This document shows, in pieces, positions 4,423-29,201 of a DNA stretch of 34,787 nt. Every line of letters starts with the position of its first letter. Position 1 is the first letter of the stretch. Location: positions 1-34,787 of the IMG/VR virus record IMGVR_UViG_3300044701_000357; one strand, given 5' to 3'. This DNA comes from a virus. The translations under genes and the position numbers were made by a program. Below the pieces are notes generated by a model. That model searched no databases, was not told the origin of the DNA, and was given only the letters and a program-made list of their open reading frames with translations.

Positions 4423-5430
4423 TTAGTTCTCCTGTTTATCTGTGTGAATGACATACCCCCAGTTGCCTGACGGTATGGGTTTACCTGCTTCGATGGTCTC
4501 TATCTTGAACGCTTGCTCTTGCTCATAAATATCATCCAAGATATGTTTCCTAGCCAGTTCAAAGAATCTACTTCTGTTGTTATCAATCAGCTCGTACAGA
4601 CGGTGCGGACGATGCTTGAAAGTCCAAGGCACGCAGTTCATCTCGACTCTTCTCACGACGCGTGAATACATATCGTTGTTACCCAAGTTGTAGTTAATAG
4701 TTGAACTCAAGCCGAGGGTCATATCTTCAACAATGTTCTGAGCACTTGCGGCCATGAAGAACCCCCTCGCGGCCTTGAACTCATCTTCGTACTTTTTCCG
4801 TATCAACTTCGTGAGCTTTGTGTCAAGACGTTTTACGTTAACGTAATAGTTGCAAGACTCATGCAGCCTCAGATCATTCAGATAAACACGTAGGCCAGGG
4901 AATACTGGATGGACAACACTACCGTTTTTCCCAAGCTGTGAATATCTGGTCAATGGTCTGTTAGTAAGTACCACCCCACCCCTACGTGAACTACTAAATA
5001 AACAAAACGACGGAAACAAACGATTGAGCATCACTTGATTACCGAAGTATGGCTTCAATCCAAACGTGAAGCTGTCGTCTGTATGCACGTAGCCAAGCAC
5101 CTGTTCATTGAGCTTGATCGTGACCGTGCCCTTGTTCTCGACGTAGTAGCGTCGACGACCGTAACGACGATGGCCCAGCGGAAACTCTTTGCCACCTGAG
5201 CCAGCGTAGGGTTTGTTCACCACTGTTTCTAGGCGTGGGGTTTCGTTTTGGTAAAAATATCTTCTGACTAGAGTTTTAAAAGACGGGTTCACAAAGTCCG
5301 CGTGTGATACACGCGGCACGATATCTGCGTAGCTCATAGTTTCTCCTGGTTTAAGGCGACGATATTTCAGGCCGAACAACTTGTTCAGCCCAGGTAAAAG
5401 TTCCTTGAGTAATTGCTTTCTAGTAATCAT
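4423..5430 (-). CDS. Unknown protein, 335 aa, with N-terminus copied from the capsid protein
   Basis: Start is ATG 5430, which overlaps the TGA of the VWA gene (ATGA); the frame stays open to 5562 inside that gene, but the coupled start is far more credible. Residues 2-24 (ITR-QLLKELLPGLN-LFGL-Y-R) nearly match residues 3-26 of the major capsid protein at 20953-21861. Most of the identical residues in the central block use different synonymous codons. The remainder (Arg/Tyr-rich segment GHRRYGRRRYYVENKGTVTI, then beta and helical segments) resembles nothing I know, and is not the HK97 fold by eye. It sits directly after AAA+ and VWA chaperone genes, so a capsid-linked adaptor, decoy or minor virion role is conceivable. 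Function unproven. Confidence 0.8.
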   Translation of the reverse strand: MITRKQLLKELLPGLNKLFGLKYRRLKPGETMSYADIVPRVSHADFVNPSFKTLVRRYFYQNETPRLETVVNKPYAGSGGKEFPLGHRRYGRRRYYVENKGTVTIKLNEQVLGYVHTDDSFTFGLKPYFGNQVMLNRLFPSFCLFSSSRRGGVVLTNRPLTRYSQLGKNGSVVHPVFPGLRVYLNDLRLHESCNYYVNVKRLDTKLTKLIRKKYEDEFKAARGFFMAASAQNIVEDMTLGLSSTINYNLGNNDMYSRVVRRVEMNCVPWTFKHRPHRLYELIDNNRSRFFELARKHILDDIYEQEQAFKIETIEAGKPIPSGNWGYVIHTDKQEN

Positions 5431-6692
5431 TCGTCCATGAAAACCTTCTTGCCGACAGGTACGGTCAAGTGTTTGTTCTGTGTGATAACCCACAGCAATG
5501 GGGCTGTGTGAGTCCATCTGATGTTGGGTTCGACATGACCATCGGTGAAGAGGATGACGCACTCGGCATTGATGTTTTCCTTAACTAGGTATTCACTGAC
5601 GCATGAAACTCTAGTACCGCCGCCACCCTTGGGCTTGAGCATATGCTGAAGTCCTGCATAGTTTCCCTGAAACACTTGTTCGCCATGCGTTTCTGCATCC
5701 CACCAGATAACTCTGACTTTTTCTGGCTCGACCGTTTCGCAGATAGAGACCAGTTCTGTAGCGAACGCGTTCAGCTCCTCCCCACCTATTGACCCGCTCG
5801 TATCGATGCCGACCACGATCTCACCGACAGTCTCACCCATTGCGACTGGGATATAGATGTCGTTTGCGACCATGCGACGGTTGTACCTACGCCAAGAATA
5901 TTCTTGCTTACCTACGCAGATAGAGCTGACGAACTCTCGCAAGACTTCCTTCCAGTCGATCTTGGCATCAAGCAAGTTGTCGATGTGTCGTGGTTTGTCC
6001 CCGCCAAGTATCCCTGCAAGGATGCCGCCTTGACGCAACGCACCATCGATCTTCTCGCCTAGCTTCTTGATCTCCTCTTCGCTCAACTTCTTGAAGTCAT
6101 GCTCGTCCATTGGCTTCTTGTCGTTGCGTAGCATGTCATCGATGTCAGTCGGCTCGCGGTTGTTGTTACCCTTGAGTTGGCCTTCATCGTCAGGTGAACC
6201 GCTATCTTGCCCACCCTCGTCACCTTGTCCACCGCCTTGCTCCTTCTCTTGGTCTATCCTATGTTGTTCTTTCTTCAGATAGTCATAGACTTGCGTGACA
6301 CTCCAGTCACGGAACATAGGATTCCACAGCCAGCCTTCCCCGATCTGAATGTCTGGTGTGTTCCAACGTACGATGATGTCATTGACGACAAAGTCTGCGG
6401 CAAAGTTCGCAAGCCTTGCGTCCTCTTTGAAGATGTGCATGTAGTGGCTAAGGTGACGTAAGTACTTGTGACCAACCTCGTGCATGATCGTCGCACGGAG
6501 TAGTGGCTCATCGCATCTCTCAAGATACTTCTCACCATAGACCACGTTAACGCCATCGGTGTAGGCAGTGGATACCTTCTTGTCCACCTTCGACTCACCC
6601 ATCACGATGATGCCTGAGAACAGCATAGTCTTCTCGTGTTTCATCAAGAAGATGTGGTTGCGTTTAAGCCTCTCGGCTTGAGATTCTTTCAT
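5427..6692 (-). CDS. VWA-domain putative metallopeptidase (CobT/DUF2201-like)
   Basis: The 421-residue protein starts at ATG 6692 (AGGAG seven bases upstream). N-terminal half: a zinc-protease-like HEVGH (residues 71-75) followed by ADFVVNDIIV, as in the DUF2201 putative metallopeptidase domain. Middle: acidic, Gly/Gln-rich linker (about 150-190). C-terminal half: a von Willebrand A domain with the metal-ion adhesion motif DTSGS (297-301), Thr360 in GGGGTR and Asp384 in FTDGH. Proteins of this type partner MoxR/CobS AAA+ ATPases encoded next door, as here, and are thought to direct the ATPase to its client. All signature residues are present. Confidence 0.88.
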   Translation of the reverse strand: MKESQAERLKRNHIFLMKHEKTMLFSGIIVMGESKVDKKVSTAYTDGVNVVYGEKYLERCDEPLLRATIMHEVGHKYLRHLSHYMHIFKEDARLANFAADFVVNDIIVRWNTPDIQIGEGWLWNPMFRDWSVTQVYDYLKKEQHRIDQEKEQGGGQGDEGGQDSGSPDDEGQLKGNNNREPTDIDDMLRNDKKPMDEHDFKKLSEEEIKKLGEKIDGALRQGGILAGILGGDKPRHIDNLLDAKIDWKEVLREFVSSICVGKQEYSWRRYNRRMVANDIYIPVAMGETVGEIVVGIDTSGSIGGEELNAFATELVSICETVEPEKVRVIWWDAETHGEQVFQGNYAGLQHMLKPKGGGGTRVSCVSEYLVKENINAECVILFTDGHVEPNIRWTHTAPLLWVITQNKHLTVPVGKKVFMDE

Positions 6693-6734
6693 AGCTTTCT
6701 CCTGATAAAGAGGGGGCAACGCCCCCGTGAATTA

Positions 6735-7844
6735 CTAACCAAGCAAGTGATGGTTAGCGATAGACCACTTGGTCACTGTCTCGTTGTAGCGAGCCAGTCG
6801 AGCCAGCTTTGAGCGAAGCAAGATCACAAACCACAGCGTCTGGATCTCGACTTGCTTGATGCGATTGACAAACATCTGAAACTTGTTGAGCTTGTCCTGC
6901 GAGTCGATGTGATCGAGAGCCTGGAAGATCATCAGCAAGAGCGGCGCAGTGTCGTTCTCGTCTGGCATCTTGATGCCCATCGGATCTTTGATGATGTTGT
7001 CAAACTTCTCAACCTTAGACTCCATCTGTACGAACGCAGACATATCACGGCCACCCCTCTCGCCAATCGTGCCACACAAAAGCCCAAGCGTTACTGCTTC
7101 TGGCAGCTTCGCTCTGATGATGGCATCACATTTCTCTAGTGAACGCGGCGAGACAAAGGACATCGAAGGCTTGCTCGGATGAAATATGTACGGATTGTCC
7201 TGTTGATCTGGGTCAAGGTACGACTTCAGCATACGGGGGTAGACCGCTACCGTAGCCTTCACGATGGGGTGAATGTCTCTGTCCTGTGCCCATATCAACC
7301 ACTCCTGCATACTCGGCTTCTGCATCTTGACGATGGTCAAGCGATTGGCAGTGTGAGCTGGCAACACATCTCCAACACCATCACTGGAGTTGTTCGACGT
7401 AGCGAGCACATACGATCCTGGTGTAAGCGGCCTGTCACCGACCGTCTTCTCCAAATACATTCTGGTATAGATCGGTTGCAAGAGTTTGGGAACCTTCAGC
7501 GCCTCGTCGATAAGCACAACCTTGGGACGTGGGTTGTCAAGGTTGAACAGACTCGACACGTAGTACTCCATCGACTTAGTCGTATGGTTGGGTATCGCTG
7601 CGGCCAAGTCCATCATCTCTTTGTTGGGGCCATCGATGTAGACGTAGTCGTACTTGTCATCTTCAAAGTAGTCACCCACCTTGCGCCACTGATCGCCGAA
7701 CATCTCAGCGAGTCCACGCAGGATAGAAGTCTTGCCGCACCCAGGCTCGGATAAGACAAGGACAGTGTTGGTCTGGCCGATAGCGGCAATAGCTTCAGTG
7801 GTCTGGCTGATAGTCAGGGTTGGATAGGTTGTAATTGCAGACAT
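6735..7844 (-). CDS. MoxR/CobS-type AAA+ ATPase
   Basis: A 369-residue AAA+ ATPase. Walker A is SEPGCGKTS (Lys38; the first position is Ser where most relatives have Gly), Walker B is VVLIDEA (Asp113, Glu114), and sensor 1 is LATSNN (Asn151) followed by an ADVLPAH-like DVLPAHTANR segment. MoxR-family ATPases act as ring chaperones that insert cofactors or remodel protein complexes together with VWA proteins; the VWA partner is the next gene. A DUF3150 gene precedes it, an arrangement also seen in some other phages with CobS-like ATPases. The phage client is unknown. Confidence 0.88.
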   Translation of the reverse strand: MSAITTYPTLTISQTTEAIAAIGQTNTVLVLSEPGCGKTSILRGLAEMFGDQWRKVGDYFEDDKYDYVYIDGPNKEMMDLAAAIPNHTTKSMEYYVSSLFNLDNPRPKVVLIDEALKVPKLLQPIYTRMYLEKTVGDRPLTPGSYVLATSNNSSDGVGDVLPAHTANRLTIVKMQKPSMQEWLIWAQDRDIHPIVKATVAVYPRMLKSYLDPDQQDNPYIFHPSKPSMSFVSPRSLEKCDAIIRAKLPEAVTLGLLCGTIGERGGRDMSAFVQMESKVEKFDNIIKDPMGIKMPDENDTAPLLLMIFQALDHIDSQDKLNKFQMFVNRIKQVEIQTLWFVILLRSKLARLARYNETVTKWSIANHHLLG

Positions 7845-7891
7845 GATATTTACCTGTGTGATTAATGTTTAATGGTTGAGTGAACTGCTGA

Positions 7892-8770
7892 TTAAAACTT
7901 CATGCCAAACTTCGACAGGATGTCATCCATACCATCTTTGACTGTAGCCTTCACAGCCTCAGAGTCACGGATGTCTTCGGCGGTATAGTTCGCAAGCACC
8001 TGTCGAGCCTGCTTGCGGATCGCCTCGATCTTCGGATCTTCAATGATGTTAAATGTTGCCAAGGTATCAATCAGCTCCCTGGCCCCCTGTATCGTAGACT
8101 CGTACACCTTGGGTCTACGCTTACCCTCTTCTGGTTCCGAACAGGCATGAGCAATCCTCTCGATGTAGTCCAACAATTGTTCACACGATGCGGCCATGAT
8201 CTCGTGGATCTGATCGTTCGCTTGTTGTGAGTAGTACTGATTCATATCCTCAATGATCTCTTGAGCCACAGCACAACGGAAGTCTGCAACAGGCACAGGT
8301 GCAATAAACAGCTTCATGCTGAAGCGATTCCGTACCTCCTGCTCAGACGGGTACAAAGTCTTGTCAAACATCGTGCCCTGACTGAACGCCATCTGTGCAA
8401 CGATTGAGGGATAGTGTGCGACAAAGTCATCTACAAGTGTGGCATGTTCAGTCTCAAGGTCACGGTACTCGGCCTTGGTCTTTTCAAGGCGAGCCATTGG
8501 CAACAGTCGCTGACTGCCAGCCCAGTCGTAGCTCAAACGCTTGAGCCAGTTGTAGACAGACTGACGATGCATGAGAATCTTTTTGTGACGGGGATCACCA
8601 GCAAGCAGGTTCTGGATGAACTTGCCAGCCTCACGGTCAGCGTTCTTTGCTGACGTAATCTCATCAGAGACAGAGCGATCTTGTCTTGTCGCTGACCAGA
8701 CTTTCACCTCCACGTTAATGAGTAATGAGGCAGTCGCCAAAGAGATTAGATAATCGGGTTTCTTAAACAT
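7892..8770 (-). CDS. DUF3150 family protein
   Basis: A 292-residue protein whose N-terminus (LINVEVKVWSATRQDRSVSD, then EITSAKNADREAGKF) fits DUF3150, a family often encoded beside MoxR/CobS-type ATPases in phages. The protein is mostly helical and charged, with Cys in HACSEPEE and a C-terminal KDGMDDILSKFGMKF. Start ATG 8770 has CAGGA nine bases upstream. It is the first gene of the three-gene ATPase–VWA block and may be an adaptor or substrate of the ATPase. Biochemical function is not established for the family. Confidence 0.8.
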   Translation of the reverse strand: MFKKPDYLISLATASLLINVEVKVWSATRQDRSVSDEITSAKNADREAGKFIQNLLAGDPRHKKILMHRQSVYNWLKRLSYDWAGSQRLLPMARLEKTKAEYRDLETEHATLVDDFVAHYPSIVAQMAFSQGTMFDKTLYPSEQEVRNRFSMKLFIAPVPVADFRCAVAQEIIEDMNQYYSQQANDQIHEIMAASCEQLLDYIERIAHACSEPEEGKRRPKVYESTIQGARELIDTLATFNIIEDPKIEAIRKQARQVLANYTAEDIRDSEAVKATVKDGMDDILSKFGMKF

Positions 8771-11322: not shown

Positions 11323-11949
11323 TTACCTGACCGACCAGTATGCCGCGATTCTGCGTTTGGTCAGTTCAACATTGGCTGATGGGTCATTGCCACGGGCATC
11401 AGCATTACGGACACGTTCAAGCATGGTGTCCATTGCCTTCTTTTCAAACTCTGCGAAGGCTAAAGCCTGGACACGTTCAGCCTTTATGCCAGCCCTTTCT
11501 TTCCAAATCTTCTTAGCCTTGCTAATCAAATCACCTAGGCGATTTGATACGTAGGCGTTTGTGTCTGTTCTCAAACCTTGGATTAATTGGAACCTGACCT
11601 TGTCTGAGGTTTTCATCTCATTTAACATTTGCTGGGTTACAGCGAACGCCACGTTCACGTTTAACGCGAACTTTTCAACGTTCAACTTTTCTATTTCCTT
11701 GGCAGACTTTTCAACATAGTTGCCATCAACAATGGCGAACAACCTTTCAGGCTTGATTGTTTCCCCATAGTGAAGGATATAACCTTCACTGAGTTGATCG
11801 CGCTGTTCTTTTGTGAATTGATCGCCACGGGAAAGGTCAGGGTTGCCAAGGGTCGGGATCGAGGCCATTGCATACCTTGCAACATCTTCAAGATTGCTGT
11901 TGATTTTGGCCTGTTGATACCCTGCGTCACGCAATGATTTGATGTTCAT
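11323..11949 (-). CDS. Paralogous cassette protein A, 208 aa
   Basis: A soluble, mostly helical protein. It shares its whole length with the 219-residue product of 12153-12812: SLRD-GYQQ at the N-terminus, IPTLG near residue 33, SNR-GDLI-KAK-I, and VRNADARGND near the C-terminus. The pair therefore arose by duplication. It is a single-gene unit with its own promoter (11998-12026) and a strong terminator. I recall similar proteins in other phage genomes without function. Independent expression suggests a product needed in quantity, for instance a nucleic-acid-binding or host-modifying protein, but nothing in the sequence proves it. Confidence 0.82.
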   Translation of the reverse strand: MNIKSLRDAGYQQAKINSNLEDVARYAMASIPTLGNPDLSRGDQFTKEQRDQLSEGYILHYGETIKPERLFAIVDGNYVEKSAKEIEKLNVEKFALNVNVAFAVTQQMLNEMKTSDKVRFQLIQGLRTDTNAYVSNRLGDLISKAKKIWKERAGIKAERVQALAFAEFEKKAMDTMLERVRNADARGNDPSANVELTKRRIAAYWSVR

Positions 11950-12152: not shown

Positions 12153-12812
12153 CTAGCTCGCTGCTTTGAACGCCGCGATCTTTCGCTTGATCAACTCGAC
12201 ATCCGCCGTCAAGTCGTTGCCCCTAGCGTCAGCGTTGCGTACTCTAGTTAGTATGTCGTCTAGTGTTTCATCTAACCAGACGCCGAACACTTTCGCTTGC
12301 ACTCGCTCTTTTTTGACGCCTAACTGAGCGCGTCGGATCTCTTTTGCTTTGCGTATCAAGTCGCCGATACGATTACTAGCGTAAGCGTTAAAGTCGGTAC
12401 GCAACTCTTGGACTAGTTGATACCAAACTTTGTCATTCGACTTGAGATCGTTCATCGCGGCTTGCGTTATAGCGAAAACACCATGAACGTCAAGCTTTCG
12501 CTTTTCACCCTTGGAGCTTTCATAATCGCTGTCGTCTTGCGATTCGACTAGGTTACCGTCGGCGACTTTGAAGTAGCGCGGAGGCTTGACCGACTCGTTG
12601 AAGTACACCATATAACCAGAGCGAAGTTCTTCGCGTTGCTCTTTGTTCATCTGGTCTTCGCGGCTTGCGTCAAGATCGCCAAGAGTTGGGATGCGCGACA
12701 TGGCGAAGCGAGCAATGCTGAGGATGTTCGACTCAGTCTTGCCTTGTTGATAACCAACGTCGCGGAGGGATTGCAATTTAAAGTCTTGCTCGACTTTCAT
12801 GGGCTTAGCCAT
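12153..12812 (-). CDS. Paralogous cassette protein B, 219 aa
   Basis: Paralogue of the 208-residue product of 11323-11949, with an N-terminal extension MAKPMKVEQDFKLQ and an acidic insert near residues 90-105 (ESQDDSDYESSKGEKRK). Conserved blocks are SLRD-GYQQGKTESN, IPTLGDLDASR, ASNRIGDLIRKAKEIRR and VRNADARGNDLTADVEL. GGGG lies about ten bases upstream of ATG 12812. It is monocistronic, with promoter at 12865-12893 and terminator at 12110-12145. The differing inserts suggest that the two copies have diverged in partner or function. No activity is known to me. Confidence 0.82.
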   Translation of the reverse strand: MAKPMKVEQDFKLQSLRDVGYQQGKTESNILSIARFAMSRIPTLGDLDASREDQMNKEQREELRSGYMVYFNESVKPPRYFKVADGNLVESQDDSDYESSKGEKRKLDVHGVFAITQAAMNDLKSNDKVWYQLVQELRTDFNAYASNRIGDLIRKAKEIRRAQLGVKKERVQAKVFGVWLDETLDDILTRVRNADARGNDLTADVELIKRKIAAFKAAS

Positions 12813-18085: not shown

Positions 18086-18282
18086 ACGAAACCGAGAAAG
18101 TTTTACGACATTTGATTAGTCGTTGTGTCGATGAACAGAAGCATTTAGCCGAAGTTCTAGCGCAAGGGCTGGCAAAGGACCACGCGGATTATCGCTTTCA
18201 GTGCGGTGTGATGCGTGGAATTTCAGTGGCGCAAGGATATCTTGCCGATATGTTAGAAAGGATGAGTGACGACGATGAGTGA
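18082..18282 (+). CDS. Small conserved protein next to the portal, 66 aa
   Basis: The start overlaps the portal stop (ATGA). A short helical protein with KHLAEVLAQGLAKDHADYRF and QCGVMRGISVAQGYLADMLE, ending in the acidic MSDDDE. I associate this 'DYRxQCGxxRGxxxA … DMLERM' protein with the same position, between portal and the next head gene, in related phages; no function is known. It may be a small head or connector component or an assembly factor. Confidence 0.78.
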   Translation: MNETEKVLRHLISRCVDEQKHLAEVLAQGLAKDHADYRFQCGVMRGISVAQGYLADMLERMSDDDE

Positions 18283-18676
18283 ACTCCTAGTAGGGTCTAC
18301 AAGCGGCTCTGCGACGGTATTGCCTGAAACCGCCGAAGAAAAAGCGCGACAACTCCCTGATCCATCAGGTTATCGAATATTATGCACGATCCCAGAGATT
18401 GACGATAAGTTTGATAATGGCTTGATTAAAGCCGATGTCACGATGCACCACGAAGAATTACTGACGACGGTGCTTTTTGTCATCAAGATGGGGCCGGATG
18501 CGTACAAAGATGAGAAGCGATTCCCGTCTGGGCCGTATTGCAAAGTGGGTGATTTTGTATTGGTACGTCCGCACGCGGGTACACGACTGAAAATTCACGG
18601 TCGTGACTTTCGCATCATTAACGATGACTCTGTCGAGGGGGTTGTAGAAGATCCTCGCGGTATTAGTCGCGCATAA
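18275..18676 (+). CDS. GroES-like (Cpn10-fold) protein
   Basis: Start ATG 18275 lies inside the end of the preceding gene; a GTG nine bases upstream is possible. In the 133 residues the order PSGYRILCTIPEIDDKFDNG, then VLFVIKMGPDAYKDEKRFPS, KVGDFVLVRPHAGTRLKIHG, and DFRIINDDSVEGVVEDPRG follows the small beta-barrel plan of GroES, in which the glycine-containing strand and the final 'xxxIxxxDIxAVV' strand are diagnostic. Phage co-chaperonins such as T4 gp31 adapt GroEL to fold capsid protein; placement directly before scaffold and capsid genes fits that role. Assignment is by pattern, without an alignment. Confidence 0.68.
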   Translation: MSELLVGSTSGSATVLPETAEEKARQLPDPSGYRILCTIPEIDDKFDNGLIKADVTMHHEELLTTVLFVIKMGPDAYKDEKRFPSGPYCKVGDFVLVRPHAGTRLKIHGRDFRIINDDSVEGVVEDPRGISRA

Positions 18677-18687
18677 GGGGTTTAAAA

Positions 18688-19605
18688 ATGGCTGAGCAAG
18701 AAAACGCCAACACCGAGTTTGAAATCGAGATTGAAGACGACACTCCTCCCGAAGATCGTGGGCGGGAACCCTTACCCAAAGAGCTAGTCAAGGAGCTTGA
18801 GGAAGACGAACTCGAAGAGTATTCCGAGAAAGTCAAAACTCGCCTCAAGCAGATGAAGAAAGTCTGGCACGACGAGCGTCGTGAGAAAGAACGTGCGTTG
18901 CGTGAGCAGCAAACTGCGATTGAAATGGCGCAGCAGTTGCAAAACGAGATTAAAACGCTACGTTCTAAAGTGACTGAAAACGAAGGGCATTTAGTAAGCA
19001 CAGCTAAAAATGCTGTGGAATTAGAACTTAAAAACGCTGAGAAAGCCTACAAAGAAGCTTATGAAGCGGGAGATTCTGATAAATTATTAGAAGCCCAAAA
19101 GCAATTAACTGAAGCATCTTATAGACTTGAGCGGTTAAAAGGATACAAACCCCCTGTACAACCGCAAGGAACTGAAGTAAATTTACCTAATTCGCAGCCA
19201 CAGGCTCCGAGATTGGACCCAAAAACTGATTCATGGCGTAGACAAAATACGTGGTTTGGATCAGATGACGAAATGACCGCTGCCGCACTTGGCCTAAACA
19301 ACAAACTGCTTAGGGAACGCGGTGCAGCATTTGAGGGTTCTGACGAGTACTGGGAAATCGTTGATAAGACGATGCGTAAAAGATTCCCCGAGTATGAATG
19401 GGGCGATGAACCTGCTGAGCCTGAGACAAAATCACCTCCAGCACGTACAGAAAGACCAGCTACGATTGTGGCTCCCGTTTCTCGTAGTACGACTTCCAAA
19501 AAAGTCAAACTTAATCAATCCCAGCTTAACGTCATCAAAAAGATGGGAATAACTCCTGAGCAATATGTGAGGGAACAAATGAAATTGGAGCGTGCAAATG
19601 GCTGA
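18688..19605 (+). CDS. Scaffolding protein (putative)
   Basis: A 305-residue, highly charged protein. The N-terminus NTEFEIEIEDDTPPEDRGRE is acidic; residues about 32-155 form a long coiled coil (LEEYSEKVKTRLKQMKKVWH, AYKEAYEAGDSDKLLEAQKQ); the C-terminus contains a basic helix KVKLNQSQLNVIKKMGITPE and a terminal YVREQMKLERANG. A coiled coil with a basic C-terminal helix, encoded just before the capsid genes, is the usual form of internal scaffolding proteins. The acidic EIEIED motif also occurs near the start of the portal. AAGGGG precedes ATG 18688. Confidence 0.8.
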   Translation: MAEQENANTEFEIEIEDDTPPEDRGREPLPKELVKELEEDELEEYSEKVKTRLKQMKKVWHDERREKERALREQQTAIEMAQQLQNEIKTLRSKVTENEGHLVSTAKNAVELELKNAEKAYKEAYEAGDSDKLLEAQKQLTEASYRLERLKGYKPPVQPQGTEVNLPNSQPQAPRLDPKTDSWRRQNTWFGSDDEMTAAALGLNNKLLRERGAAFEGSDEYWEIVDKTMRKRFPEYEWGDEPAEPETKSPPARTERPATIVAPVSRSTTSKKVKLNQSQLNVIKKMGITPEQYVREQMKLERANG

Positions 19606-20952: not shown

Positions 20953-21861
20953 ATGGCTATTTCACGCGCACAACTACTGAAAGAGCTTCTCCCCGGCCTG
21001 AACGCATTGTTCGGCTTGGAGTACGCTCGCTATGGCGAAGAGCACAAGGAAATCTACGAAACCGAGACTTCCGAGCGTTCGTTTGAAGAGGAAACCAAAC
21101 TGTCTGGATTCTCGGCCGCACCGGTCAAGAACGAAGGCAGCGCGATGGCCTACGATAACGCGCAAGAAGCTTGGACCGCTCGTTACGTCCATGAGACTAT
21201 TGTCTTAGGATTCTCGCTAACCGAAGAGGCTATCGAGGACAACCTGTACGACAATCTGGCTAATCGCTACACCAAGTCCTTAGCTCGCGCTATGGCATAC
21301 ACCAAGCAGACCAAAGCTGCTGCGGTTCTGAACAACGGCTTTAATACTGCCTACACGGGCGGTGATGGAGTTGCTCTGTTCTCGACAGCACATCCTTTGA
21401 TCTCTGGTGGCACCAACAGCAACACGCCCGCAGTTGCGGCTGACCTTTCTGAAACATCGTTGGAAGCAGCGGTTATTCAGATTGCAGCTTGGACTGACGA
21501 ACGTGGTCTGTTGATTGCAGCTAAGCCGAAGAAGCTGATCATCCCGTCTGCATTGCAGTTCGTTGCAACTCGTATTTTGGAAACGGAACTGCGCGTTGAC
21601 ACGGCAGACAACACGATCAACGCCTTGAAGAACAATGGCTCGATCCCCGAGGGTTACGCCATTAACCACTTCTTGACGGATACGGATGCTTGGTTCCTTA
21701 CGACTGACGTGCCCAATGGTATGAAGCACTTTGTCCGCGCACCTTTGACACAGGGAATGGATGGCGATTTCGATACCGGAAACGTTCGGTACAAGAGCCG
21801 CGAGCGTTATTCGTTCGGTTGGTCTGATCCGCTTGGGATGTTTGGTTCGCCCGGAGCATAA
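20953..21861 (+). CDS. Major capsid protein, HK97 fold, Mu gpT-like
   Basis: A 302-residue capsid protein. The N-arm starts with ISRAQLLKELLPGLNALFGL; then SERSFEEETKLSGFSAAPVK, the TARYVHETIVLGFSLTEEAI helix region, GVALFSTAHPLISGG, AAWTDERGLLIAAKPKKLII and a final SRERYSFGWSDPLGMFGSPG correspond to the Mu-type major head subunit family of the HK97 fold. It self-assembles on the scaffold to form the shell. AAGGGG precedes ATG 20953. A terminator follows immediately, closing the first late transcription block. The N-terminal segment recurs in the early-operon gene 4423-5430. Confidence 0.93.
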   Translation: MAISRAQLLKELLPGLNALFGLEYARYGEEHKEIYETETSERSFEEETKLSGFSAAPVKNEGSAMAYDNAQEAWTARYVHETIVLGFSLTEEAIEDNLYDNLANRYTKSLARAMAYTKQTKAAAVLNNGFNTAYTGGDGVALFSTAHPLISGGTNSNTPAVAADLSETSLEAAVIQIAAWTDERGLLIAAKPKKLIIPSALQFVATRILETELRVDTADNTINALKNNGSIPEGYAINHFLTDTDAWFLTTDVPNGMKHFVRAPLTQGMDGDFDTGNVRYKSRERYSFGWSDPLGMFGSPGA

Positions 21862-21964: not shown

Positions 21965-22567
21965 ATGGACACCACAAATTTACCCAAAACCCGACAAGAA
22001 GCTAAAGCCACAGGTGCCAAGTACTACTTCACTGGCGAGCCTTGTAAGCATGGGCACATTGCACCGCGCAAAACTAAAGGCTCATGCGTTGAATGTTTGA
22101 AAGTTGAATGGGAAAAAGCCAATACCACCAGAGCCGATTACTTCCGCGACTACAACAAATCAGAAGCGGGGCAACAAGCTAAGCGAAAGTATTACGAAGC
22201 AAACAAAGAAAACGTCATTGCGCGGGCACAGGCAAGACCAGACGAGGATAAACGCCGATATAAAAAAACTCATAAGGTCAACAACCCTGATATGTATAAA
22301 GAAATGACTAGCTTACGTCGTCGAAGATTTAGGGATGCCACGCCTAAATGGTTGACGGACACTCACAAAATGGAAATCAGGTTGAAATACAGGCTAGCTA
22401 TTGAACTTAGCCGTGCTACTGGAGAACGTCATGCGGTGGATCATATTGTCCCCCTTCATGGTGAAAACGTATGCGGGCTTCATGTGCCTTGGAACTTGCA
22501 AGTTTTAACCCAAAAAGACAACTTGCTTAAATACAATCGCATGGTTGACACACCCCTCACAACCTGA
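21965..22567 (+). CDS. HNH homing-type endonuclease
   Basis: A 200-residue protein. The N-terminal zinc motif YFTGEPCKHGHIAPRKTKGS with CVEC (cysteines 27, 41, 44) is followed by a long basic coiled linker, then an HNH nuclease: VDHIVPLHGENVCGLHVPWN (Asp159-His160, Asn177) and a final N-L-L-K-Y-N segment. It has its own terminator-insulated promoter and lies between capsid and downstream structural genes, the usual setting of a free-standing homing endonuclease inserted in a phage late operon. The AAGGAG site precedes ATG 21965. The catalytic motif looks intact. Confidence 0.9.
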   Translation: MDTTNLPKTRQEAKATGAKYYFTGEPCKHGHIAPRKTKGSCVECLKVEWEKANTTRADYFRDYNKSEAGQQAKRKYYEANKENVIARAQARPDEDKRRYKKTHKVNNPDMYKEMTSLRRRRFRDATPKWLTDTHKMEIRLKYRLAIELSRATGERHAVDHIVPLHGENVCGLHVPWNLQVLTQKDNLLKYNRMVDTPLTT

Positions 22568-23729: not shown

Positions 23730-23982
23730 GACTCCGGCATGGCAGCGTAAAGAAGGTAAATCTGAAAAAGGCGGACTCAACGCCAAAGGCAGAGCTTCAT
23801 ATAACGCAGCTAATCCGGGTAAGCCTGGGCTTAAACCCCCCGCTCCAAACCCAAAAACCGAGAAAGATGCTAACCGGCGTAAGTCTTTTTGTGCAAGGAT
23901 GAGTGGGATGCCTGGGCCAATGAAAGATGAAAAAGGGCGACCAACGCGCAAAGCGTTGTCGTTAAAGGCGTGGAAATGCTAG
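23722..23982 (+). CDS. DUF6321-like small basic protein, 86 aa
   Basis: MAKTPAWQRKEGKSEKGGLN followed by AKGRASYNAANPGKPGLKPP, APNPKTEKDANRRKSFCARM and SLKAWKC matches the DUF6321 pattern (hallmarks 'PAWQRKEGK-GGLN-KGR' and 'RRKSFCARM'). It is very basic, Gly/Lys/Pro-rich and probably disordered. Function unknown; first of a series of small basic proteins in this operon that may be packaged with DNA. The start lies 8 bases inside the preceding gene. Confidence 0.82.
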   Translation: MAKTPAWQRKEGKSEKGGLNAKGRASYNAANPGKPGLKPPAPNPKTEKDANRRKSFCARMSGMPGPMKDEKGRPTRKALSLKAWKC

Positions 23983-24383
23983 CCTGTACACGCTGTAAAG
24001 AGGAAAAACCAGAAACAATTGAGTTCTTCCCTCCACACAACAAAAAGCGTAACGGTTTAGATAGCTGGTGCCGTAGTTGTCGTGCAACGTATCGAAATGC
24101 AAACTGTCGTGGGCGGTTTCGTGATGTAATTACAGACGAAGCTTTAGCGGATATAAAAGCCACGGTTACACAGTGTGTTATTTGTGGGGATAACGGGCCT
24201 TTGGTTGTAGACCATGACCATGTAACCGGAGAAGTAAGAGGGATGCTCTGCAATCACTGTAATAGAGGGTTAGGGCATTTCCGTGATGACCCAATGTTGT
24301 TGGAGTTTGCCGCCCAGTATCTTTATGCTTCAGCAGATGCTCCTGAGTGGGATGCGTATAAAGTTAAGGCGGAGCAGTGCTAA
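23976..24383 (+). CDS. Recombination endonuclease VII-like nuclease
   Basis: Start ATG 23976 (a GTG is six bases earlier). The 135 residues begin MLACTRCKEEKPETIEFF and carry two zinc knuckles (CTRC … CRSC), then the His-Me finger: CVICGDNGPLVVDHDHVTGE and VRGMLCNHCNRGLGHFRDD. This is the endonuclease VII family. In T4 the enzyme resolves branched DNA before packaging, but small free-standing versions like this one are often mobile. Its insertion among small basic structural genes suggests a mobile origin. The key DHDH and CxxC residues are intact. Confidence 0.88.
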   Translation: MLACTRCKEEKPETIEFFPPHNKKRNGLDSWCRSCRATYRNANCRGRFRDVITDEALADIKATVTQCVICGDNGPLVVDHDHVTGEVRGMLCNHCNRGLGHFRDDPMLLEFAAQYLYASADAPEWDAYKVKAEQC

Positions 24384-27901: not shown

Positions 27902-28329
27902 TGGCCTTTATTGGAAACTACACATGCAACTCCTTCAAGCAGCAATTGTTTGAGGGGGATTTTGATTTTTCTTCGGGTACGACACAGACCTTTAAGATCG
28001 CGCTGTACACCAACGATGCCACCCTTGATCAAACCACAACGGCTTATACGACTACTGGCGAGGTTGTGGCTACGGGGTATACGGCGGGTGGAGAAGCCAT
28101 CACTCCTTCACTTGCTATTGATAGTTCCACAGGTATTGCTTATATTGACTTTTCTAATGCTTCTTGGAGTGGTGCTTTCACTGCTCGGGGTGCTTTGATT
28201 TATCGGGAAACAACTGGCAATCCAGCAATTTGTGTTCTTGATTTTGGTTCAGATAAGACTTCGACAACTACGTTTGTCGTTGAGTTTCCCCCCAATACCA
28301 GCACCGGCGCACTAATAAGGCTTTCATGA
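27901..28329 (+). CDS. Structural beta protein, 142 aa
   Basis: MAFIGNYTCNSFKQQLFEGD, then FKIALYTNDATLDQTTTAYT, TGEVVATGYTAGGEAITPSL, and RGALIYRETTGNPAICVLDF: a beta sandwich-like sequence rich in Thr/Ser. It appears distantly related to the product of 29203-29664, sharing the 'FKxALxT … GYxxGGxAL … AxLCxxDF' order, so the two may occupy neighbouring tail positions. The start overlaps the previous TAA by one base. Function unknown. Confidence 0.72.
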   Translation: MAFIGNYTCNSFKQQLFEGDFDFSSGTTQTFKIALYTNDATLDQTTTAYTTTGEVVATGYTAGGEAITPSLAIDSSTGIAYIDFSNASWSGAFTARGALIYRETTGNPAICVLDFGSDKTSTTTFVVEFPPNTSTGALIRLS

Positions 28330-29201
28330 TGGGTACCCCTGTCGGATTCTTTTCCGAACCACCAACCGTTGTAATTGCTCCGATCCCTCCCAAGGATGAT
28401 GAAACTTGGGTTGCTGCTGAAGAAGTGGAGATGGAGGGGTCGTTAAATATTGACTTGGAAGTTCTCAAAACTAACGTATCGCACAACATCAAATTGGGGT
28501 TTCAACAGATTGTTCCCCATCCTACGAATGATGTTGAAGTCATGATTGTTGGGGGCGGACCCTCACTTGCCGAACATATAGGCACAATCAAACAGCTACG
28601 GCAACAAGGCGTAAAACTTATTACGTTAAATAATGCGTATCAATTCTGTATTGATCACGGCCTTTTACCTTCTGCTTATTTTATGGTTGACGGTCGTGAG
28701 TTCAACAAACGCTTTTTGACATCGATCATTCCTACCTGTAAGTATTTTCTCTCTTCACAATGTCACCCAACTGTGTTTGAAGGGATGCCTAAAGAGCAAA
28801 CTTATATCTGGCACACCAGTGCAGAAGAGATCCAAGAGATTTTGGCAACCGAGTACAGAAATTGGTATGCGGTGCCTGGGGGTTCGACGGCATTGCTTCG
28901 GGCCATCCCTATGTTTAGAATGTTAGGGTTTAAGCGGTTTCACATCTTTGGATGCGACTCTTGTTTAGAAGACGGTAAGCATCACGCTTACGCGCAAGCA
29001 GAAAACGACGGTCTTCCTGTTGTGCCGGTAAAAGTTGGCGGAAAGCTCTTTTACTGTCATCCTTGGATGGTCTCGCAAGCAAGGGAGTTTATCGACCTGA
29101 TTAAGTTCATGGGCGATGAAATGGAACTTCAAATCTACGGCGGAATGCTTCATCAAATCTTAGTTACTGGGGCGTCGAACGCCGATATTAAGGAGTATTG
29201 A
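28326..29201 (+). CDS. DUF115/MptE-like protein
   Basis: A 291-residue protein. The central domain has VEVMIVGGGPSLAEHIGTIK (GGGPSL at 76-81), VKLITLNNAYQFCIDHGLLP, and AYFMVDGREFNKRF (MVDGRE at 120-125), the pattern of DUF115 (6-hydroxymethylpterin pyrophosphokinase MptE-like) proteins, which include flagellin-modifying Maf proteins. The C-terminal part has a GGSTALLRAIPMFRMLGFKR block and HIFGCDSCLEDGKHHAY. The typical glycine-rich nucleotide-binding and Asp motifs are kept. Encoded between tail genes, it may modify tail proteins or the host surface; that is inference. Confidence 0.82.
   Translation: MMGTPVGFFSEPPTVVIAPIPPKDDETWVAAEEVEMEGSLNIDLEVLKTNVSHNIKLGFQQIVPHPTNDVEVMIVGGGPSLAEHIGTIKQLRQQGVKLITLNNAYQFCIDHGLLPSAYFMVDGREFNKRFLTSIIPTCKYFLSSQCHPTVFEGMPKEQTYIWHTSAEEIQEILATEYRNWYAVPGGSTALLRAIPMFRMLGFKRFHIFGCDSCLEDGKHHAYAQAENDGLPVVPVKVGGKLFYCHPWMVSQAREFIDLIKFMGDEMELQIYGGMLHQILVTGASNADIKEY

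Follow-up and report, generated by a model that had tools for sequence, protein, structure and literature searches.

Which proteins are carried inside phage heads is hard to predict from sequence, and the known signals, such as the capsid-targeting sequence (CTS) of T4 and that of P1 DarB, are short and phage-specific. The internal proteins of T4 are diverse accessory proteins that share only one short conserved targeting peptide, the CTS (PMC3012670), and in P1 the 30 N-terminal residues of DarB suffice for capsid targeting (PMC9024508). Short elements of this kind also occur in head assembly itself. SaPI1 CpmB and the 80alpha scaffold have a common RIIK motif with contacts at the capsid N-arm (PMC5644958), Rcm has been proposed as a competitor of scaffold (PMC12409344), and in SPP1 the N-terminal helix of the major capsid protein (MCP) is bound by the scaffold (PMC6813328). 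Here we describe a peptide that is found both in the N-arm of an MCP and at the ends of several non-capsid proteins.

The window analysed is a 34,787-nt IMG/VR virus record (IMGVR_UViG_3300044701_000357) with 619 ORFs, the relevant features of which are collected in Table 1. A preliminary description of this sequence had pointed to a likeness between the beginnings of a 335-aa protein, P0001, and the MCP, P0002, encoded on opposite strands about 15 kb apart. Both ORFs translate as claimed, and the spacing comes to 15.5 kb. The 19 identities that had been counted were also recovered, in an ungapped alignment of 24 positions, but the P0001 segment had to be extended by one residue, from 2-24 to 2-25, against MCP residues 3-26. 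Different synonymous codons are used at 10 of these 19 residues, again in agreement with the first count. The match is real and far above chance: MCP residues 1-30 against P0001 gave a BLOSUM62 score of 94, compared with 33 for the runner-up among all the window ORFs and a maximum of 42 over 2,000 shuffles of P0001, and in a search of the window record the P0001 query recovered the MCP N-terminus at E = 1e-6. A shared RNA element was rejected as the cause, since the codons differ at so many of the identical residues and C-terminal copies of the peptide exist. The MCP N-arm is the likely source of the P0001 segment, which is referred to below as the tag.

Table 1. Features of the window that bear on the shared peptide, with positions in nucleotides
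Feature	Position	Strand	Basis or remark
P0001, 335-aa protein	4423..5430	-	ORF and translation; early-operon
Tag, P0001 residues 2-25, ITRKQLLKELLPGLNKLFGLKYRR	5356..5427	-	Peptide matching MCP N-arm
Shine-Dalgarno-like site and internal start (codon 32), GGAGAAACT-ATG	5335..5346	-	Conserved in window and L001-L005
326-aa protein directly downstream of P0001	3440..4420	-	Accompanies P0001 in 5 relatives
DUF2201 metallopeptidase-like/VWA protein	5427..6719	-	PF13203 7e-22, PF09967 5e-18, phrog_1314 2e-78
AAA+ ATPase	6735..7844	-	phrog_1297 3e-38
GroES-like co-chaperonin, alternative partner	18266..18676	+	phrog_3188 1.5e-8; PF00166 0.002, under cut-off
Putative scaffold protein, 305 aa, candidate tag partner	18688..19605	+	Charged; just upstream of capsid genes
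MCP P0002, 302 aa, HK97 fold, Mu gpT-like	20953..21861	+	Pfam, PHROG, AlphaFold, Foldseek
MCP N-arm helix, residues 3-26, ISRAQLLKELLPGLNALFGLEYAR	20959..21030	+	AlphaFold helix 5-26

The MCP belongs to the Mu gpT-like/Phage_capsid_4 group both by its profiles (Pfam PF25209, Phage_capsid_4, 2e-13; PF10124, Mu gpT, 3e-9; phrog_371, major head protein, 2.5e-22) and by its fold, with an HK97-type AlphaFold model (mean pLDDT 72) whose best Foldseek matches are encapsulins and phage capsids. The first helix of this model, residues 5-26, is the tag segment, and in JBD30, the structural model for Mu gpT-like MCPs, the procapsid has a helix at N-arm residues 6-25, matching the one predicted here. The same MCP is found in named phages, including the Pelagibacter phages HTVC023P and HTVC027P, the Roseobacter phages CRP-901/902 and Synechococcus phage MinM2, and the segment is present in the sampled MCPs of this phage group. 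A degenerate DNA scan of IMG/VR with QLLK[EQ]LLPGLN gave at least 120 stretches, and among the matches listed all were MCP N-termini. A hyper-conserved N-arm was nevertheless rejected: in named phages found without the tag pattern, residues 3-26 are as conserved as the rest of the MCP (0.64 each), so that the near-invariance of the segment in pattern-found MCPs is partly a matter of ascertainment. P0001 and the other proteins that carry the tag have only the arm in common with these MCPs and match no capsid profile.

Within the head operon, the GroES-like gene sits between the portal gene and the putative scaffold gene, the product of which has a C-terminus weakly resembling that of the Mu-like I protein (PF10123 at 7e-4, under the curated cut-off) and falls in phrog_28737, a family with no assigned function. 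The presence of the GroES-like gene in this operon, together with the leucine-rich nature of the helix, would fit a chaperonin-client tag, where host GroEL and the phage GroES-like protein recognise the hydrophobic N-arm helix and the tag either routes proteins to this machine or occupies it. However, the 70-96% sequence identity of the peptide exceeds what GroEL binding should need, tagged proteins of 54-96 aa leave little to fold, and C-terminal copies would be unusual for such a signal, all of which makes a chaperonin role quite improbable. Two HNH-like proteins were also seen by eye in the structural operon (window 21965-22567 and 23970-24383), the first just after the MCP, as was a Maf/DUF115-type glycosyltransferase-like protein within the tail module (28326-29201).

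That the rest of P0001 is not visibly a capsid, as first suggested, is supported by our searches. P0001 matched no Pfam or PHROG profile, those of capsids included, its body (residues 32-335) matched no solved structure, and its AlphaFold model has a mean pLDDT of 34. Five relatives were found in IMG/VR (L001-L005), and then a sixth, the fragment L204. The segment is present in L001, L003, L004 and L204 and absent from L002 and L005, the bodies of which are 96% and 93% identical to that of P0001, respectively. In these last two, the VWA stop is followed by a different leader, and the apparent protein start is the ATG at P0001 codon 32. In the window the same ATG has GGAG five bases upstream, a strong ribosome-binding site, and the ATG that opens the tagged form shares bases with the stop of the VWA gene (ATGA). 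With a start for the tag and a retained internal site, P0001 would have two starts, and it is likely from this arrangement that a long tagged form of 335 aa and a short untagged form of 304 aa are made. The N-terminal part looks like a translated segment, being in frame, start-coupled and constrained in relatives: its frame is kept in 5 sequences despite a 3-nt insertion in L001, and the tag is under mild purifying selection, comparable to that on the P0001 body. The L002 leader before the tag-less orthologue contains a perfect 22-nt palindrome, AATAACTTATCGATAAGTTATT (L002 4410-4480), and the leader of L005 differs.

Comparison of the VWA genes indicates how these differences may have arisen. 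The most distant relative, L204 (84.5% nucleotide identity), is tagged, yet L002 and L005, which are 97% identical to the window, are tag-less. The simplest history is thus an ancestral tag that was probably lost in the L002 and L005 lineages, with recombination as a possible alternative. In G022-type phages the slot behind the VWA gene is taken by a remote P0001 orthologue (E = 2e-7 at 21% identity) that is tag-less as well, and the 326-aa protein downstream of P0001 has weak similarity to the same-slot gene of G022. Since P0001 persists tag-less in L002 and L005, the tag is not needed for the main function of the body, and with two close relatives and remote orthologues lacking it, the segment cannot be an obligatory part of P0001. 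The preliminary description had named homologues without the segment beforehand as what would refute it, and their existence counts against a role specific to P0001. As to the surroundings, window 5427-8770 encodes a DUF3150 protein with its AAA+ and VWA neighbours, a module that is also present in L411, G014 and G009. The PHROG label of the VWA protein, 'HNH endonuclease', is unsupported by its Pfam domains. A pair of neighbouring early proteins, 208 and 219 aa in length and apparently paralogues (11323-11949 and 12153-12812, minus strand), matched nothing in Pfam or PHROG and is conserved as a pair in G003 (L003).

The peptide is not confined to the capsid/P0001 pair described at first. In IMG/VR scans, the tag was found at the N- or C-terminus of at least eight non-capsid body types on 19 contigs, five of the sequences being P0001 itself (window, L001, L003, L004, L204). 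A 119-aa protein, found on three contigs when whole MCP-bearing contigs were searched, has a C-terminal copy after an EPEPSG linker (ending in KYRGQLVEELLPKLNALFGIEDKR and the stop codon; linker then peptide read EPEPSGVKYRGQLVEELLPKLNALFGIEDKR up to the stop). An HMM built solely from MCP tags picks this copy out of 57,000 ORFs at E = 2e-7. A scan requiring isoleucine after LFG, designed to skip most MCPs, yielded further small tagged ORFs. With neighbours named as read from the sequence and not from profile matches, the small carriers are an 86-aa protein directly behind the VWA gene, i.e. in the P0001 slot (L411, L426), an 82-aa protein between nuclease and DNA polymerase (L437, L438 and the variant L436), a 54-aa protein behind DNA polymerase (L412), a 67-aa protein behind a RecB-like exonuclease (L417, L439, L446) and a 96-aa protein in a similar location (L458). 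Another 67-aa protein has a CxxC motif and bears the tag in its C-terminal half (L450). The 119-aa protein and the other small carriers rule out a tag unique to the MCP and P0001.

Most carriers adjoin replication or VWA genes. Their bodies, about 30 to 304 aa, have no common domain, and the eight show no convincing relation to one another; a single pair, L411/L438, exceeded z = 3 in body comparisons, and only marginally (z 3.4). Carrier and MCP are on one contig in eight cases (window, G003, G004, G006, G031, G059, G106, G109), on opposite strands in 8/8, and the MCP on each of these contigs bears the tag; some other tagged contigs are fragments on which the MCP was not seen. We call the tagged genes early from their position and strand. 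On most of the other contigs that have this MCP and are largely complete, the peptide occurs in the MCP and nowhere else, which makes the carriers accessory and the tag sporadic. A combined HMM gave no further carriers over 5.5 Mb of these phages, the tag HMM matched no other window protein, including the putative scaffold, and in 12 phages searched over their whole records the tag was confined to the MCP (8/12). Searches of the phage collection by tblastn with tag-only queries returned nothing or MCPs only, which does not amount to absence, as the low-complexity filter presumably masks the leucine-rich tag. A bacterial host protein was rejected as the source: scanning 84,980 species genomes for the exact pattern gave 18 matches, every one of them an MCP. 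No paper containing the core sequence LLPGLNALFG was found in open-access full texts, and the shared tag is part of a wider pattern that is apparently undescribed. Sporadic, accessory spread and variable small carriers are common for anti-defence genes, and one could envision that the MCP N-arm is sensed by some defence or other factor of the host, with the tagged early proteins as decoys or inhibitors. An early decoy, though, could set off a capsid-sensing defence sooner, and no defence gene or target for such a mimic was found; we consider the odds of this reading slight.

Within the 67-aa carrier family, L417 and L439 differ in tag codons 3-24 by 7 synonymous and 0 nonsynonymous changes, compared with 4 and 17 in the body (Fisher P = 3e-4). 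The search pattern had fixed some tag residues, so the test was repeated on the 13 free codons, where the tag has 2 synonymous and 0 nonsynonymous changes against the same 4 and 17 (P = 0.06); counted as nonsynonymous codons, these are 0/13 in the tag and 17/42 in the body (P = 0.005). The earlier proposal of selection on the peptide itself is thus upheld, more weakly when the search-fixed codons are left out. The amino acids of the peptide are retained even as the bodies that bear it change or the tag itself is gained and lost. The absence of recent copying, also proposed earlier, extends to every sampled MCP. A recent duplication of the 5' end of the window MCP was rejected, the P0001 tag being identical to it at 44/66 nucleotides, and over about 190 sampled sequences the best identity was 50/66, with none above 76%. 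Moreover, the position of the conserved Gln7 in the sampled MCPs of the group is D or E in five carrier families, a difference suggestive of a separate tag lineage passing from one early gene to another.

These data also bear on the notion that the carriers are the product of non-functional spread, i.e. of MCP 5'-end fragments captured by recombination at gene junctions and persisting without a role. An intact body after loss of the tag, as in L002 and L005, would be expected in that case, as would matches that run slightly into MCP-like sequence (EYKTYG in L417). On the other hand, such fragments should not show amino acids conserved through synonymous change, such a distance in nucleotides from all sampled MCPs, C-terminal copies that are in frame to the stop, or D/E at Gln7 in carrier families with what seems to be their own tag lineage, and we find non-functional spread improbable.

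Considering our findings here, the best explanation, which we hold tentatively and at somewhat less than an even chance, takes the shared segment to be a portable imitation of the MCP N-arm helix that serves as a capsid-docking or encapsidation tag. The tag would bind the N-arm's own receptor in the procapsid, which may be the scaffold or a neighbouring shell subunit, the product of 18688-19605 being the candidate scaffold receptor. In this way, early proteins of an accessory kind could be brought up to the head during its assembly, or inside it. A docking or packaging tag was among the first suggestions for this peptide and fits the eight tagged body types, but the particular partner among those suggested (chaperone, scaffold, shell, bait target) is not established. 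Encapsidation rather than mere binding is argued by analogy with T4 and P1 only. A wider reading, possible but more doubtful, is that a tailed-phage group employs its shell N-arm as a general cargo address. Early accessory genes would gain the peptide at either end by gene fusion, and the encoded proteins would dock in procapsids and might then enter the next host by injection. A capsid-targeting tag could in that case be read straight from the capsid protein sequence.

The main rival relies on the same chemistry as docking. The early tagged proteins would then be regulators or competitors of assembly that sit at the N-arm site of the scaffold or shell and so slow or adjust the building of the capsid, in the manner of SaPI CpmB, a competitor of the phage scaffold by way of their common short motif. 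The docking logic is that of the best explanation, the carriers lie in early-type positions on the strand opposite to the MCP, and there are precedents in the RIIK motif and N-arm contacts of CpmB and scaffold (PMC5644958) and in the proposal for Rcm (PMC12409344). Nevertheless, CpmB and Rcm come from satellites and imitate the scaffold rather than the capsid protein, and bodies of about 30-304 aa without a common domain are unneeded for a simple competitor. Competition is thus unlikely in our view, with the chaperonin, host-facing and neutral-spread readings less likely still. Were it true, these phages would encode a control on the timing of head assembly. If instead the peptide is a docking tag that copies the capsid arm, genome sequences by themselves would suffice to list cargo proteins in an abundant aquatic phage group with relatives including Pelagibacter and Roseobacter phages. 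The tag also provides a simple way to ask how non-structural proteins are recruited through the binding sites of the N-arm.

By its anatomy the tag resembles a capsid-targeting sequence, although membership is not claimed. As with the T4 CTS, one conserved short terminal peptide is found on several unrelated bodies, here of eight types; unlike the CTS, to which no sequence relation is claimed, the tag copies the N-arm of the MCP itself and stands at either terminus. The likeness to P1 DarB is one of analogy, in that a short N-terminal region (about 30 residues in DarB) may serve as a capsid address; the P1 Dar proteins have no common consensus, whereas unrelated carriers and the MCP bear similar versions of the tag. 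As with CpmB, a short motif is common to a non-phage-structural protein and a head-assembly protein. However, CpmB copies the end of the scaffold and so carries the capsid-binding motif of the scaffold, whereas the peptide shared by the carriers described here is in the MCP, the arm of which it copies.
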